A model generated the notes under the pieces. It did not search any database and was not told the DNA's origin. It worked only from the letters and a program-made list of their open reading frames with translations. The translations under genes were made by a program, and so were the position numbers. From NCBI RefSeq assembly GCF_024611995.1, contig NZ_CP102509.1:1364001-1428000 (forward strand): 64,000 nt of DNA, given 5' to 3'. Positions 2,154 through 6,680 of the stretch are shown here, piece after piece. This DNA is from Streptomyces sp. NBC_00162 (GTDB taxonomy: Bacteria; Actinomycetota; Actinomycetes; Streptomycetales; Streptomycetaceae). Each line of letters opens with the position of its first letter. Within the stretch, counting starts at the first letter, position 1.

Positions 2154-2798
2154 TCAGAAGAGGTCGGCGAAGAACTGGTAGCCGGTGGGGTCGCCGGGCA
2201 TCTGCCAGTGGAATCCCTGGAGGAGGAAGCAGGCGACGAGGTTGCTGACGGCGAAGAAGGCCAGGACCCCCAGGGTGAAGCCGGCGGTGCGGCGCAGGGC
2301 GGGCGAGGTGGCGGCGGCGTCCAGGGGCTGGGCCCCGTCGGCTAGGACGAGGGTGACGCCTGCGGCGAGGGCGGCCAGGAAGAAGGTGATGGCGGCCCAG
2401 GTGTACAGGTGCAGCCCGAAGAGGGCGCCGGCGTAGCCGGGGTCCGGGGGCACGATGTGCATCAGCACCTGTGCGCCGGAGACGGTGCCGCCGATCAGCG
2501 CGGAGACGAGGGCGACGCCCCAACCGGAGGCGAATTCACCGGTGGTCACGGCTCCCTTGCGGGAGCGGGCGATGATCATGGCGGGGCCGATGGCGCTGAG
2601 CAGCATGAACATGCGCTGGAGGAGGCACATGGGGCAGGGGTACTCCCACAGGCCGAACTGGAAGACGTAGGCGCCGCCGATGGTGGCGCACATGCCCAGG
2701 ACGTAGGCGTGGGCGAACCAGAGGCCGAGGCGGTTGGAGAGCCGGGCGGCAGGGGCGGCGGCTGCGGGGCCGGTGACGGGGGTGGTGACGGTGGACAT
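2154..2798 (-). CDS. DsbB-like disulphide bond formation membrane protein
   Basis: This 214-residue protein has four main hydrophobic segments and the DsbB signature CPMCLLQR (about residues 55-62) after the first segment. In DsbB this Cys-x-x-Cys passes electrons from thiol oxidation to quinone. The second periplasmic Cys pair of classical E. coli DsbB is absent; the only other Cys lie in hydrophobic segments. The partner oxidase, or the mechanism, may therefore differ. The ribosome binding site GAGGAG overlaps the stop codon of the 52-codon gene just upstream, so the two are probably translationally coupled. A LysR-type operator lies upstream of the pair. A quinone-linked membrane role fits the nearby cytochrome bd genes under the same predicted regulator. 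Confidence 0.85.
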   Translation of the reverse strand: MSTVTTPVTGPAAAAPAARLSNRLGLWFAHAYVLGMCATIGGAYVFQFGLWEYPCPMCLLQRMFMLLSAIGPAMIIARSRKGAVTTGEFASGWGVALVSALIGGTVSGAQVLMHIVPPDPGYAGALFGLHLYTWAAITFFLAALAAGVTLVLADGAQPLDAAATSPALRRTAGFTLGVLAFFAVSNLVACFLLQGFHWQMPGDPTGYQFFADLF

Positions 2799-2810: not shown

Positions 2811-2969
2811 TCAGAAGCTCAGGTTGAAGGCTCGGTCGAGGTGGGGGAGGAACGCGAGGATCGTGACGCTCAGCGTTCCCGCCCACAGCAGCAACCGGTG
2901 CCGGCGTGGCCAGTCCCGCAGGACGGCCAGGACGCATACGGCGATCAGGAGGAAGAGGATGGTGTACAT
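2811..2969 (-). CDS. Small two-segment membrane protein coupled to the DsbB-like gene
   Basis: This 52-codon gene starts with ATG at 2969, preceded by CAGGGACACC as ribosome binding site. The protein begins MYTILFLLIAVCVLAVL, has a short basic loop (RDWPRRHR), a second hydrophobic segment and ends LDRAFNLSF. It has one Cys, in the first segment. Its stop codon TGA runs directly into the GAGGAG ribosome binding site of the DsbB-like gene, 12 bases before that ATG. This supports a real gene and co-translation. No family was recognised. A subunit or chaperone of the DsbB-like protein is an inference from position only. Confidence 0.7.
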   Translation of the reverse strand: MYTILFLLIAVCVLAVLRDWPRRHRLLLWAGTLSVTILAFLPHLDRAFNLSF

Positions 2970-3026: not shown

Positions 3027-3069
3027 CGGTAGCGGCAACGGATCAATGCATCCATAGAACAGGTCTATG
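3027..3069 (-). promoter_or_regulatory. LysR-type operator and promoter region, dsbB side
   Basis: The core at 3053-3069 reads (minus strand) CATAGA-N5-TCTATG, a perfect inverted repeat that fits the LysR T-N11-A rule. It overlaps the stop codon of the LysR gene. A further conserved stretch continues to 3027. The 33 bases 3027-3059 match 4044-4076 at 29 positions in inverted orientation. The proximal end lies about 58 bases upstream of the 52-codon gene, so the element probably controls that gene and the DsbB-like gene. Confidence 0.75.
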
Positions 3070-4036
3070 ACCTCGGGGACGTCGCGGACCTCGCGGACCT
3101 CGGGGACCTCGAGGGGCTTCCGGCGGCGTTGAGCGGCCTGCGGGCGAGAGCGTACAAGTCCCTGGCCGGGCCGGTCGGGCGCCGGCCGGTGGGCCATACG
3201 GCGCGCAGCGACCGGTCGAGGTCGAGCCCGGTCACCGACGGGGACCGCAGGGTGCCGGCGGCCAGTTCGTCGGCGACGGCGAGCGAGCTGAGGACGGCGG
3301 GGCCGCCGCCGCCGGCCACGGCGGTCTTGATGGCGGTGGTGGAGGCGAGTTCCAGCAGGGCGGAGGGCTGCCAGTCCGGGAGGTGAGCCGTGATCGCCCG
3401 CTCGAAGGCGGTGCGCGTACCGGATCCCGCCTCTCGCTGGATCAGCGAGGCCGCGGCGAGTTCCTCGAGGGTGATGGCGGTGCGCCGCGCCCAGGGGTGC
3501 GCCGGGGCCACCACGACGACGAGACGGTCCCGGGCCACGGCATGGCTCTCCAGCCCCTTCGGTGCGCGGGGGCTTTCGATGAAACCGATCTCGGCGCGGC
3601 CTTCCAGGACGGCCCGGGCCACGTCGGCCGAATTGCCGGACTCCAGTGCGACGCTGGTGGCGGGGTGCTGCGCCCGCAGACCGATGAGCCACTTGGGGAC
3701 CAGGTACTCGGCGACCGTCTGACTGGCGGCGACCTTCAGATGGGAGCTCCGCTGTTCGCGCAGGGCGCCGATGCCGGCGTCCAGCGCGTGCGCCGCGTCG
3801 ATCACGGTCCGGGCCCACTCGGCGATCAGCGCGCCGGCCAGCGTGGGTTTGGATCCGAGGGCGGAGCGCTCCAGTACGGGCAGGCCGACGAGCTTCTCCA
3901 GGTAGCGGATCCGGGAGCTGGCAGAGGGCTGGCTGATGCCGTGTTCCGCGGCGGCGCGCCCCAGGCTGCCGAGTTCGATGACGCTGAGCAGCAGGTCGAG
4001 GGCGGGCAGGTCGGGGACGCGCGGAGAGATGGGCAT
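3065..4036 (-). CDS. LysR-family transcriptional regulator
   Basis: This 323-residue protein has an N-terminal winged HTH at about residues 10-70, with the LysR core AAAEHGISQPSASSRIRYLE. It is followed by a substrate-binding domain of the CysL-like kind (LKVAASQTVAEYLVPKWL, then IGFIESPRAP). The C-terminal about 20 residues are Arg/Ser/Pro-rich. The start ATG at 4036 overlaps one half of the operator at 4034-4050, which predicts autoregulation. The gene is flanked by two copies of the same operator, each pointing outward: one to cydAB, one to the DsbB-like pair. The effector is unknown. A redox, sulphur or respiratory signal is suggested by the targets. Confidence 0.9.
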   Translation of the reverse strand: MPISPRVPDLPALDLLLSVIELGSLGRAAAEHGISQPSASSRIRYLEKLVGLPVLERSALGSKPTLAGALIAEWARTVIDAAHALDAGIGALREQRSSHLKVAASQTVAEYLVPKWLIGLRAQHPATSVALESGNSADVARAVLEGRAEIGFIESPRAPKGLESHAVARDRLVVVVAPAHPWARRTAITLEELAAASLIQREAGSGTRTAFERAITAHLPDWQPSALLELASTTAIKTAVAGGGGPAVLSSLAVADELAAGTLRSPSVTGLDLDRSLRAVWPTGRRPTGPARDLYALARRPLNAAGSPSRSPRSARSATSPRS

Positions 4037-4076
4037 AGAGCCATTCTATGGATGCATCGATCTGACGCCGCTACCG
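4034..4076 (+). promoter_or_regulatory. LysR-type operator and promoter region, cydA side
   Basis: The core at 4034-4050 is CATAGA-N5-TCTATG, identical in both half-sites to the copy at 3053-3069. Its left half contains the complement of the LysR start codon. The conserved extension GGATGCAT and GATC then GCCGCTACCG runs to 4076, 66 bases before cydA. Binding here could repress the regulator and activate cydAB. Confidence 0.75.
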
Positions 4077-4106: not shown

Positions 4107-4145
4107 ATGAGCACCAAGACCCCCGCGCTGAAGGCGGCCTCGTGA
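4107..4145 (+). other. Possible 12-codon leader ORF overlapping the cydA start
   Basis: ATG at 4107 opens a frame encoding MSTKTPALKAAS, whose TGA stop overlaps the cydA GTG start (GTGA). GAGGG lies about 10 bases upstream of the ATG. Such an overlap would couple cydA translation to the leader. It could also be chance. No regulatory codon run is visible. Confidence 0.3.
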
Positions 4146-5674
4146 ACACGGCACAGGCACTGGCACTGGCGCCGGAGACGATGGCCCGCTGGCAGTTCGG
4201 CATCACCACCGTCTACCACTTCCTCTTCGTACCGTTCACCATCAGCCTGGCGGCGATCACCGCGGGGCTGGAGACCGCGTGGGTGCGTACGGGCAAGGAG
4301 AAGTACTTCCACGCCACGAAGTTCTGGGGAAAGCTCTTCTTGATCAATATCGCGATGGGTGTCGTCACCGGCATCGTCCAGGAGTTCCAGTTCGGCATGA
4401 ACTGGTCCGACTACTCGCGATTCGTCGGTGACATCTTCGGGGCCCCGCTCGCCTTCGAGGCGCTGGTCGCGTTCTTCCTGGAGTCCACCTTCATCGGCCT
4501 GTGGATCTTCGGCTGGGACAGACTGCCGAAGAAGCTCCACTGCCTGTGTATCTGGCTGGTCTCGATCGGCACGATCCTGTCCTCGTACTTCATCCTCGCG
4601 GCGAACTCCTGGATGCAGCACCCCGTCGGCTACGCCCTCGACAAGGCCACCGGCAGGGCACGACTCACCCACGTGTGGGCCGTACTGACGCAGCACACCA
4701 CCCTGGTCCAGGCGTGGCACACCCTCAGCGCCTCCTTCCTGACCGGCGCCGCCTTCGTCGTCGGAATCTCCGCCTTCCACCTGCGGCGGGCCAAGCGGAA
4801 CGGAGCCGGGCCGGCTTCCGGCGGGCGGACGCCGGTGGCCGTCATGCGCACCTCGCTGCGCCTCGGCCTCACCCTCGCGGTGACCGCCGGCCTGGCCACC
4901 GCCGTCAGCGGCGACAGCCTCGGCCAGGTCATGTTCGAACAGCAGCCGATGAAGATGGCCGCGGCCGAGGCCCTGTGGGACACCCGGGCACCCGCGCCCT
5001 TCTCCGTCTTCGCGGTCGGCGATGTGGACGAGGGCCGCAACGACGTCGCCGTCGAGATCCCCGGCGTACTGTCCTTCTTCGCGCACCACGACCTCACGGG
5101 CTCCGTGCCCGGCGTCAACGACACCGCCCGCCGGGAAGCCGCCCGGTACGGCGGCATGCCCGAGGACTACATCCCCGACGTCTTCATGACCTTCTGGGGC
5201 TTCCGCCTGATGATCGGCTTCGGCATGGTCTCCTTCGCGGGCGGCGCGGCCGGCCTCTGGCTGACCCGCAGCCGGCGCCGGCTCGACCCGCCACTGCGCA
5301 CCGGGGAAGACGAAGTGCCGCGGCTGATGCTCACCCGACGCCGCGAACTCGGCCCCTTCCTCACCACCTGGTACTGGCGGACCGCAACACTCACCCTCGG
5401 ATTCCCGCTGATCGCCAACTCGTTCGGCTGGATCTTCACCGAGATGGGCCGCCAGCCGTGGGCCGTCAACGGACTGATGAAGACCCGTGACGCGGTCTCC
5501 CCCGGCGTCTCCACCACCTCCACCGTCATCTCCCTGACCACCTTCACCCTGCTCTACGCCGCGCTCGCCGTCATCGAGGTCAGGCTGCTGACCCGGTACG
5601 CGAAGGCCGGCCCGCAGACCGGGGAGGCACCGCCGGAAGCATCCGGCCACCGCCCCCTGGCCTTCACCTACTGA
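4142..5674 (+). CDS. cydA: Cytochrome bd ubiquinol oxidase subunit I
   Basis: This 510-residue polytopic membrane protein starts with GTG at 4142 (VNTAQALALAPETMARWQFG). The start matches the usual CydA N-terminus, RxQFxxTxxYHFLFVPxT. Visible family hallmarks are the His in VYHFLF, SWMQHPVGY in the middle and GRQPW near residue 440. The quinol-loop region between the central helices is short, as in other actinobacteria. With CydB it forms a quinol:O2 oxidoreductase in the cytoplasmic membrane that works at low oxygen or under respiratory inhibition. cydB follows 25 bases later. The upstream LysR operator suggests control by the divergent regulator. No cydCD transporter genes are nearby. Confidence 0.95.
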   Translation: MNTAQALALAPETMARWQFGITTVYHFLFVPFTISLAAITAGLETAWVRTGKEKYFHATKFWGKLFLINIAMGVVTGIVQEFQFGMNWSDYSRFVGDIFGAPLAFEALVAFFLESTFIGLWIFGWDRLPKKLHCLCIWLVSIGTILSSYFILAANSWMQHPVGYALDKATGRARLTHVWAVLTQHTTLVQAWHTLSASFLTGAAFVVGISAFHLRRAKRNGAGPASGGRTPVAVMRTSLRLGLTLAVTAGLATAVSGDSLGQVMFEQQPMKMAAAEALWDTRAPAPFSVFAVGDVDEGRNDVAVEIPGVLSFFAHHDLTGSVPGVNDTARREAARYGGMPEDYIPDVFMTFWGFRLMIGFGMVSFAGGAAGLWLTRSRRRLDPPLRTGEDEVPRLMLTRRRELGPFLTTWYWRTATLTLGFPLIANSFGWIFTEMGRQPWAVNGLMKTRDAVSPGVSTTSTVISLTTFTLLYAALAVIEVRLLTRYAKAGPQTGEAPPEASGHRPLAFTY

Positions 5675-5699: not shown

Positions 5700-6680
5700 A
5701 TGCACCTGCACGACCTCTGGTTCGTACTGATCGCCTTCCTGTGGACCGGCTACTTCTTCCTCGAAGGCTTCGACTTCGGCATCGGCATACTCACCGGGAT
5801 CCTCGCCCGCGACACCGAGGAACGCGGCGTACTGCTCGCCACCATCGGCCCCGTCTGGGACGGCAACGAGGTCTGGATGCTGACCGCCGTCGGCGCGACC
5901 TTCGCCGCCTTCCCCGACTGGTACGCCACCCTGTGCAGCGGCTTCTACCTGCCGATCCTCGCCGTGGTGGTCTGCCTGATCGTGCGCGGTGTCGCCCTGG
6001 AGTACCGGCACAAGCGCGACGACGAAGTGTGGCGGCGGGTCTGCGACCGCTGCGTGTTCTGGACCTCGCTGGTCTGCTCCGCCCTGTGGGGACTGGTCTT
6101 CGCCAACATGGTGCGGGGCGTGCCCATCGGTCCGGACGGGAACGTCACCGGCGGCCTGCTCGATCTCCTCCACCCGTACGCGCTCCTCGGCGCGCTGACC
6201 ACCCTGTGTCTGTTCACCCTCCACGGAACGCTCTTCGCCGCGCTGAAGACGACCGGCGCCGTACGCCGCCGGGCCCGGTCCCGGGTACGGCCGCTGGCCG
6301 ACGTCACGACCGTGGTCACCGGCGCCTTCCTGTTCTGGACACAGGTGCACCACGGCGGGCCGGTGTACGGCCTCATCGTGCTGAGCGTCGCCGTCGTGGC
6401 GCTGGTCGCCACCGTCGAACAGACCGCGCTGGGCAGGGACGGGAGGGCGTTCGCGCTGTCCGCGCTGGCAGTCGCGGCCACGGTCGCGACGCTCTTCCTG
6501 GCCCTGTTCCCCGATGTGATGCCGTCCTCGACCGATCCCGACTGGAGCCTGACCGTGGCCGGTTCGGCCGCGAGCCCGTACACGCTGACGATCCTGACCT
6601 GGGTCGCGGCCTTCATGACCCCCGTCGTCCTCGCCTACCAGGCCTGGACCTACTGGGTCTTCCGCAGGCGCGTCGGCTGA
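5700..6680 (+). CDS. cydB: Cytochrome bd ubiquinol oxidase subunit II
   Basis: This 326-residue membrane protein begins MHLHDLWFVLIAFLWTGYFF and has the CydB hallmark LEGFDFGIG followed by GPVWDGNEVW. Several further hydrophobic helices follow. It is the second core subunit of cytochrome bd oxidase and pairs with CydA, encoded just upstream. A GGGA ribosome binding site lies about 13 bases before the ATG. Its last 31 bases overlap the convergent MFS gene on the opposite strand, so no intergenic terminator fits between them. Confidence 0.95.
   Translation: MHLHDLWFVLIAFLWTGYFFLEGFDFGIGILTGILARDTEERGVLLATIGPVWDGNEVWMLTAVGATFAAFPDWYATLCSGFYLPILAVVVCLIVRGVALEYRHKRDDEVWRRVCDRCVFWTSLVCSALWGLVFANMVRGVPIGPDGNVTGGLLDLLHPYALLGALTTLCLFTLHGTLFAALKTTGAVRRRARSRVRPLADVTTVVTGAFLFWTQVHHGGPVYGLIVLSVAVVALVATVEQTALGRDGRAFALSALAVAATVATLFLALFPDVMPSSTDPDWSLTVAGSAASPYTLTILTWVAAFMTPVVLAYQAWTYWVFRRRVG

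Follow-up and report, generated by a model that had tools for sequence, protein, structure and literature searches.

The locus described here raises the question of why a single gene for a LysR-type regulator should carry the same operator at both of its ends, one copy facing the genes of a cytochrome bd oxidase and the other a pair of genes that includes a DsbB-like one. It lies in a 64,000-nucleotide stretch of the genome of Streptomyces sp. NBC_00162, the whole of which is referred to as the window. The regulator gene (3065..4036, minus strand) encodes a protein of 323 aa that is considered FinR/YeiE-like on its Pfam LysR_substrate and HTH_1 domains and its PDB matches. On one side of it are cydA (4142..5674, plus strand), encoding the 510 aa subunit I of the oxidase (PF01654, 551.8 bits; PDB 7d5i, 7nkz), and cydB (5700..6680, plus strand), encoding the 326 aa subunit II (PF02322 and TIGR00203, above cut-off), both domains of a cytochrome bd oxidase thus being present. 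On the other side, on the minus strand, are a 52-codon membrane-type gene (2811..2969), which is DUF5993-like with a PF19455 score of 17.4 bits that is below the cut-off of 27, and a gene (2154..2798) for a DsbB-like membrane protein of 214 aa with one CPMC motif (PF02600, 44.9 bits; alignment). The reading preferred here, with a probability of roughly 70%, is that this is a derived locus, in which a FinR/YeiE-like and probably sulfite-responsive regulon has been rewired.

A first-pass annotation had placed perfect 17-base boxes at 3053-3069 and 4034-4050, and the letters of the window bear this out. The box at 4034-4050 (CATAGAGCCATTCTATG), found at the same place in close relatives, overlies the start codon of LysR (4034-4036, minus strand) and looks toward cydA, whose GTG is at 4142, with the T-N11-A palindromic operator of a LysR divergent promoter thus present as a perfect box. 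The box at 3053-3069 (CATAGACCTGTTCTATG on the minus strand) covers the LysR stop codon and faces the 52-codon and DsbB-like genes. The extension of 33 bases reported around the boxes, 29/33 identical in inverted orientation, is also there and the inverted repeat reaches further, to 46 nt with 38/46 identical. Only these two sites match the perfect pattern in the whole 9.02-Mb genome (9,023,989 bases), therefore the pair is more than chance; a shuffle test confined to the window is less decisive, with two or more sites of no more than two mismatches in 2/100 shuffles, and it is the genome-wide and comparative tests that carry the weight. The strain's genome has a single site with one mismatch, C1:992824, which falls within a long reading frame and was discarded. 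Not every relative has the second box over the LysR stop codon, the overlap being absent in the related loci L002 and L003 and present in L004 and L013, the listing compared being one that does not include L001. At 3069-3122 of the window there are repeats of 27 nt that overlap with a period of 9 nt (GACCTCGGG-like) and encode an extra C-terminal tail of the LysR protein, which ends inside the Dsb-side box.

Relatives of the regulator were collected by a scan of genome contigs that found 449, the best 80 of which were kept. The box, in the form CATAR-N7-YTATG, is found no more than 330 bases upstream of the LysR match in 70 of these 80 loci, and elsewhere in the 80 loci the pattern has only five copies, one on the Dsb side of each of L001, L002, L003, L004 and L013; a reversed control pattern has no occurrence in the 80 loci. 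Conservation in relatives, on which the first-pass annotation had made its proposal depend, is thus found, both in these 70 loci and in front of the DsbB orthologue in all seven genomes that have one. The ten loci without an exact box count against the preferred explanation; three of them (L018, L068, L074) do carry a box that differs at one position, and seven (L023-L025, L028, L029, L037, L039) have no box at up to one mismatch. The box ATG shares the LysR reading frame in 64 of the 70 box-bearing loci, 63 of which also have a TANNNT within the box six bases ahead of that ATG, a layout suggestive of a leaderless lysR transcript whose -10 region is covered by the operator. In the window the putative -10 element would be TAGAAT at 4043..4048 (minus strand), inside the box, its promoter role being presumed from the conserved TANNNT.

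The gene that usually faces the regulator is a transporter of the SLAC1/TDT family, found divergently within 2 kb in 67 of the best 80 loci, and the LysR-transporter pair is common in Streptomyces and also occurs in Nocardia, Lentzea and Actinomadura. Four of the 13 loci without a divergent TDT gene have one elsewhere in the locus (L003, L028, L037, L039) and nine have none. The transporters of two relatives score 282.3 and 265.7 bits for PF03595, the one compared with TIGR00816 falls below that cut-off at 164 of 237 bits, and a PDB search gave no close solved relative, the best match being SLAC1 at E 0.022. The yeast sulfite pump Ssu1 is a member of the same SLAC1/TehA/TDT family.

Beyond what the first-pass annotation had seen in it, the extension around the box contains a third half-site and a CTACC at fixed spacing. 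Read toward its target, the resulting module is CATAR-N7-YTATG-N4-CATNG-N11-CT, often CTACC. By letter match, the full module facing cydAB covers 4034..4075 on the plus strand (box, N4, CATCG at 4055-4059, N11, CTACC at 4071-4075) and that facing the Dsb pair covers 3028..3069 on the minus strand (box, N4, CATTG at 3044-3048, N11, CTACC at 3028-3032). Columns 38-39 are CT in 51/51 distant and 14/15 close rows with a divergent TDT gene, counts that include the window, count L006 twice, leave out the rows with no divergent TDT (4/19 close, 2/53 distant) and stand apart from L018, L068 and L074, which have no exact box and are outside the table. CTACC may be a -10 element or may belong to the activation site, the sequence TACCGC around it fitting TANNNT poorly. 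The full module is present in 265/392 Streptomyces genomes, with the reversed control present in at least one (G224) among the matches listed. A draw across the phylum found the module in 11/346 genomes, and as 10 of the 11 are Streptomyces the strict module is rare outside the genus. In the strain's own genome there are three perfect modules, two at the locus and one between a second LysR-TDT pair, and this second LysR (C1:6673625), of the same family (55%) and with a similar operator, counts against the preferred explanation, as either paralogue may be the one at work. Three further CATAR-N7-YTATG matches in this genome (L154, L156, L157) were rejected as chance, as they overlap ORFs of at least 100 codons, judged from the ORF listing alone, and the reversed control also gave three.

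The type of regulator gives an indication of what the signal may be. The window LysR scores 47.0 bits for HTH_1 (cut-off 26.6) and 157.9 bits for LysR_substrate (cut-off 28), both above, and the best PDB matches of its effector domain are YeiE 8sbh and 7erp/7erq. The top-ranking NCBIfam models are a selenium-metabolism LysR (159 of 250 bits) and YeiE (150.1 bits, the equivalog NF040889 having a cut-off of 480), both below cut-off. Glu145 of E. coli YeiE, the residue that separates sulfite from sulfate (PMC12423496), aligns with Glu154 of the window LysR and is Glu in 80/80 relatives, and Ser105, Thr107, Asn135, Ser136, Arg201, Ser205 and Thr207 are also invariant in the same best 80 of 449. 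With an effector domain closest to YeiE and the discriminating Glu, the regulator probably belongs to the wider YeiE/FinR-type sulfite-binding group, and a resemblance to the sulfite-binding YeiE and FinR is suggested. YeiE is an autorepressor that activates the adjacent yeiH on sulfite (PMC12880088), and according to that paper, citing earlier work, the FinR of P. aeruginosa occupies its own promoter whether or not sulfite is present.

The genes found behind the module away from the regulator point in a similar direction. Among 14 regions, hand-picked from the sites listed as being unlike LysR-TDT sites, eight have behind the module a gene for a ferredoxin-NADP reductase, which is tentatively named FprA-like on its PDB matches to mycobacterial FprA (298.9 bits) and adrenodoxin reductase (252.2 bits). 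A second draw, blind to the sites, matched fprA in 40/61 genomes at E 1e-150, and in the best 30 of these 40 the best module score upstream is 13-16 of 16 in every locus: 16 (exact) in 4, 15 in 20, 14 in 4 and 13 in 2, with the strain's own fprA one of the two scoring 13. Shuffles of single bases, not dinucleotides, reached 13 in 3/6000 and never higher. At up to three mismatches the strain's genome has 28 module matches vs 18 for the control, thus the weak sites were not used, except for that of fprA which is backed by relatives. In many of the fprA loci (L208-L237) the module is followed by a TTAGG...CTTAGTTTAGG-like sequence, which we take to resemble the box of an iron regulator (DmdR/IdeR), suggesting that iron and sulfur jointly control fprA.

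Other genomes add further genes, in G080 the module precedes a MauE - DsbA-like - glutamate-synthase-like operon and in G385 and G309 a glutamate-synthase-like gene. A PF03601 (yeiH) neighbour of a LysR of this family was seen in two genomes: G348, where the full module precedes yeiH divergent from the regulator (47%), and G283, where a second LysR (49-50%) adjoins yeiH with the box CATAGGTGAACTCTATG and a CTACC 20 bases on, with no CATNG. Two divergent full modules 38 bp apart are found at 3560-3675 of L179 (G361), where the one adjoining ORF that was tested matched no Pfam family, and a full module at 3327-3365 of L184 (G237), where an ORF of 492 aa begins whose product looks secreted by eye, may be chance; the calling of ORFs by GC frame around relatives' loci is heuristic.

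Taken with the type of regulator, these module and box genes (TDT, yeiH, fprA and, in one genome, the DsbA-like operon) argue for sulfite or sulfur-redox stress. The part of this argument that depends on fprA is weakened by the finding that in Salmonella sulfite reduction was no help to growth under aerobic sulfite stress (PMC12880088). It is also possible, if unlikely, that the same regulon has an oxidative or thiol stress as its inducer, such as superoxide, hypochlorite or disulfide stress. FinR in P. aeruginosa answers paraquat and NaOCl, both of which induce fprA through it (PMC5302815), a fact that counts against sulfite as the signal may then be oxidative, and the targets do include fprA, a DsbB-like gene and the MauE-DsbA-like operon of G080. 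Against this, TDT and YeiH transporters are not obvious oxidant defences, the Glu that discriminates sulfite from sulfate is invariant, and YeiE and its homologues bind sulfite (PMC12880088).

How such a regulon would come to face cydAB can be read from the closest relatives, two of the three having the order box-TDT-cydAB and the third, L003, having neither TDT nor cydAB at the corresponding place. In the window there is no intact PF03595 gene behind the operator, nor a divergent PF03601 (YeiH) gene, but between box and cydA, where the first-pass annotation had noted nothing, there is the remnant of a deleted gene. This 12-codon reading frame (4107..4145, plus strand; MSTKTPALKAAS*) has a stop codon that overlaps the cydA GTG, corresponds at its start to the beginning of TDT in L001 and L002 and corresponds in its last codons to the end of that gene. 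From this comparison it is concluded that the TDT gene of the window was deleted internally and in frame with the remnant left behind, and, as the remnant is directly before cydA, that cydAB stands where TDT stood and took over its promoter. By eye, the TDT gene of L002 likewise lacks an internal in-frame stretch that L001 has. In the loci examined cydAB is under the operator only behind TDT, as in L001, L002 and G283, and directly only in the NBC_00162 strain.

On the Dsb side, an orthologue of the DsbB-like protein, at 72% identity or above, is found in 7 of 392 Streptomyces genomes searched, some match at E 1e-20 being found in 32, and in all seven, window included, a homologue of the 52-codon gene is upstream; three relatives score 15.2-19.3 bits for PF19455 (gathering 27). 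The box is also upstream in all seven, of which two (G256 and G277) are the genomes of L001 and L002 and four have no adjacent LysR. These four, G283, G299, G172 and G133, have no LysR in the 11-kb stretches fetched around DsbB and elsewhere in the genome only LysR relatives of 49-61%. The spacing box-N20-CTACC is seen on the Dsb side in the window, L001, L002, L003, L004, L013, G299, G172 and G133, with the third half-site in G133 having T instead of C. In G283 the DsbB-DUF5993 and TDT-cydAB genes are divergent from one shared box, with CATNG and CTACC on the TDT side only and none facing Dsb, which counts against the preferred explanation. In all 9 orthologues of the DsbB-like protein compared one CPMC is accompanied by two conserved cysteines that stand alone (GMC/GLC and ACF/ACL), neither of which, on an assumed topology, is in the stretch expected for the second DsbB pair. 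The strain's genome has a second DsbB-like protein (43%) at C1:5514184-5514786 (L141), behind genes that by eye resemble a response regulator and a sensor kinase, and a paralogue in G283 (L149) has a small 54-codon gene in front of it, much as the DUF5993-like gene precedes DsbB in the window.

It might be argued that the operators are no more than relics, left over from a lysR-TDT unit and a duplication, and that neither cydAB nor dsbB is effectively regulated by LysR here, although this seems rather improbable. In its favour TDT is being lost in the clade, as seen in the window remnant, the gap of L002 and the absence from its place in L003, and L003 retains an intact Dsb-side module with only the end of DsbB left, therefore a module alone is no proof of a working target. 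However, the Dsb-side box is present in 7/7 genomes with the orthologue, and CTACC, which is gone from the TDT-less sides of six box-bearing loci (L003, L004, L005, L007, L059, L064), is intact on the cyd side of the window though no TDT follows.

The first-pass annotation had predicted one regulon in which LysR would control the bd oxidase together with membrane thiol oxidation, both feeding the quinone pool, and one duplicated operator does face both gene sets in the window, CydA has GRQPW and the DsbB-like protein a CxxCxxxR (CPMCxxxR) motif, and G283 has both sets divergent from its shared box, but a pairing through oxygen and the quinone pool is very doubtful as the divergent gene is TDT in 67/80 loci, among the 80 only L001 and L002 have cydA close to LysR, another cydAB of the strain's own genome has no module in the surrounding 8-kb stretch, and fprA, yeiH and TDT genes have the module or the box in front of them. 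The search of Streptomyces genomes that had been proposed gave a similarly divided answer, the box being upstream of every DsbB orthologue and cydA directly behind it only in the NBC_00162 strain. A third and distant CydA homologue (27% to that of the window) is encoded at C1:1655508-1656779 (L153).

The rewired sulfite regulon may operate as follows, with binding, induction and signal all predicted from sequence comparison. LysR would bind CATAR-N7-YTATG at its own start codon, over the -10 region, and so repress itself. With its inducer bound, for which sulfite or a reactive sulfur species related to it is the most likely candidate, the protein would also engage the neighbouring half-site CATNG and activate the promoter on the CTACC side, although FinR still bound in vitro when the second palindrome, which includes the third half-site there, was changed (PMC5302815), and thus the third half-site need not matter. 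The ancestral activated gene would be the SLAC1/TDT-family transporter, probably an exporter of anions (sulfite), cydAB would have joined the LysR-TDT operon in a small group of Streptomyces, a copied operator-promoter module would have come to drive the DUF5993-DsbB pair, and the in-frame internal TDT deletion would have put cydAB directly behind the operator and a 12-codon minigene. Induction would then reach cydAB in one direction and DUF5993-DsbB in the opposite one.

Sulfite attacks disulfides, and the genes would form a set for dealing with it by export (lost here), by reduction with FprA supplying ferredoxin, by a bd oxidase and by disulfide repair or oxidation. Whether this extends to a FinR/YeiE-like sulfite regulon across the genus, comprising TDT or YeiH, fprA and sometimes DsbA- or DsbB-like genes, that was rewired in one clade by module copying and transporter deletion to give bd oxidase and DsbB-like protein as a sulfite-induced output, is an even bet. 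It would provide a testable inducer, operator and list of targets for a widespread Streptomyces LysR-transporter pair, and would link sulfur stress, and not oxygen alone, to a bd oxidase and a DsbB-like protein. It would also be a readable case of regulon rewiring, by a copied operator-promoter on one side and by promoter capture through gene deletion on the other.

No account of the LysR/cydAB/DsbB arrangement in Streptomyces was found in the titles and abstract starts of the open-licence PMC literature, and the same literature gave no link of LysR, sulfite and a TDT exporter, none of sulfite, LysR and FprA in Streptomyces, and no account of binding, expression or ligand for an actinobacterial member. 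Among its matches listed there was no TDT family transporter with LysR in Streptomyces, and the passages of its one matching ChIP-exo paper gave no YeiE binding motif. The available parts of the YeiE literature do not name cydAB or dsbB as YeiE targets.

Compared with known systems, the DsbB-like protein is like DsbB (PF02600) in its CxxCxxxR motif and a score above the Pfam cut-off, and unlike it in having one CxxC with two lone cysteines, in falling below the NCBIfam DsbB cut-offs and in being paired with a DUF5993-like gene. The ancestral divergent target is a PF03595 member as in SLAC1/TehA/TDT, but below the TIGR00816 cut-off and, in the window, deleted. In YeiE-YeiH of E. coli, Salmonella and Cronobacter a LysR gene is likewise divergent from that of a membrane protein (PMC12880088), YeiE is the best PDB match of the window effector domain with the Glu145 equivalent kept, and the E. 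coli intergenic region has one ATAA-N7-TTAT core, as do 34/1000 shuffles. It differs in that the usual neighbour here is SLAC1/TDT (67/80) and not PF03601, in the operator outside the core and in the NCBIfam YeiE cut-off, which the window LysR does not reach.

FinR-fprA of P. aeruginosa differs in its half-site letters, in gene order, in fprA here being unlinked to LysR and named by its match to mycobacterial FprA/adrenodoxin reductase rather than to the Pseudomonas enzyme, in the oxidants reported as its signal and in a second palindrome that is dispensable for binding. However, FinR controls the divergent fprA through TATCC-N7-GGATA (PMC5302815), a 17-bp palindrome that has the same 5-7-5 layout and is followed by another half-site, at a gap of 5 bp in the printed P. 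aeruginosa sequence vs 4 bp here. In both systems the regulator's own promoter contains a box that is at the same time upstream of the promoter to be activated, and in both fprA is a target.
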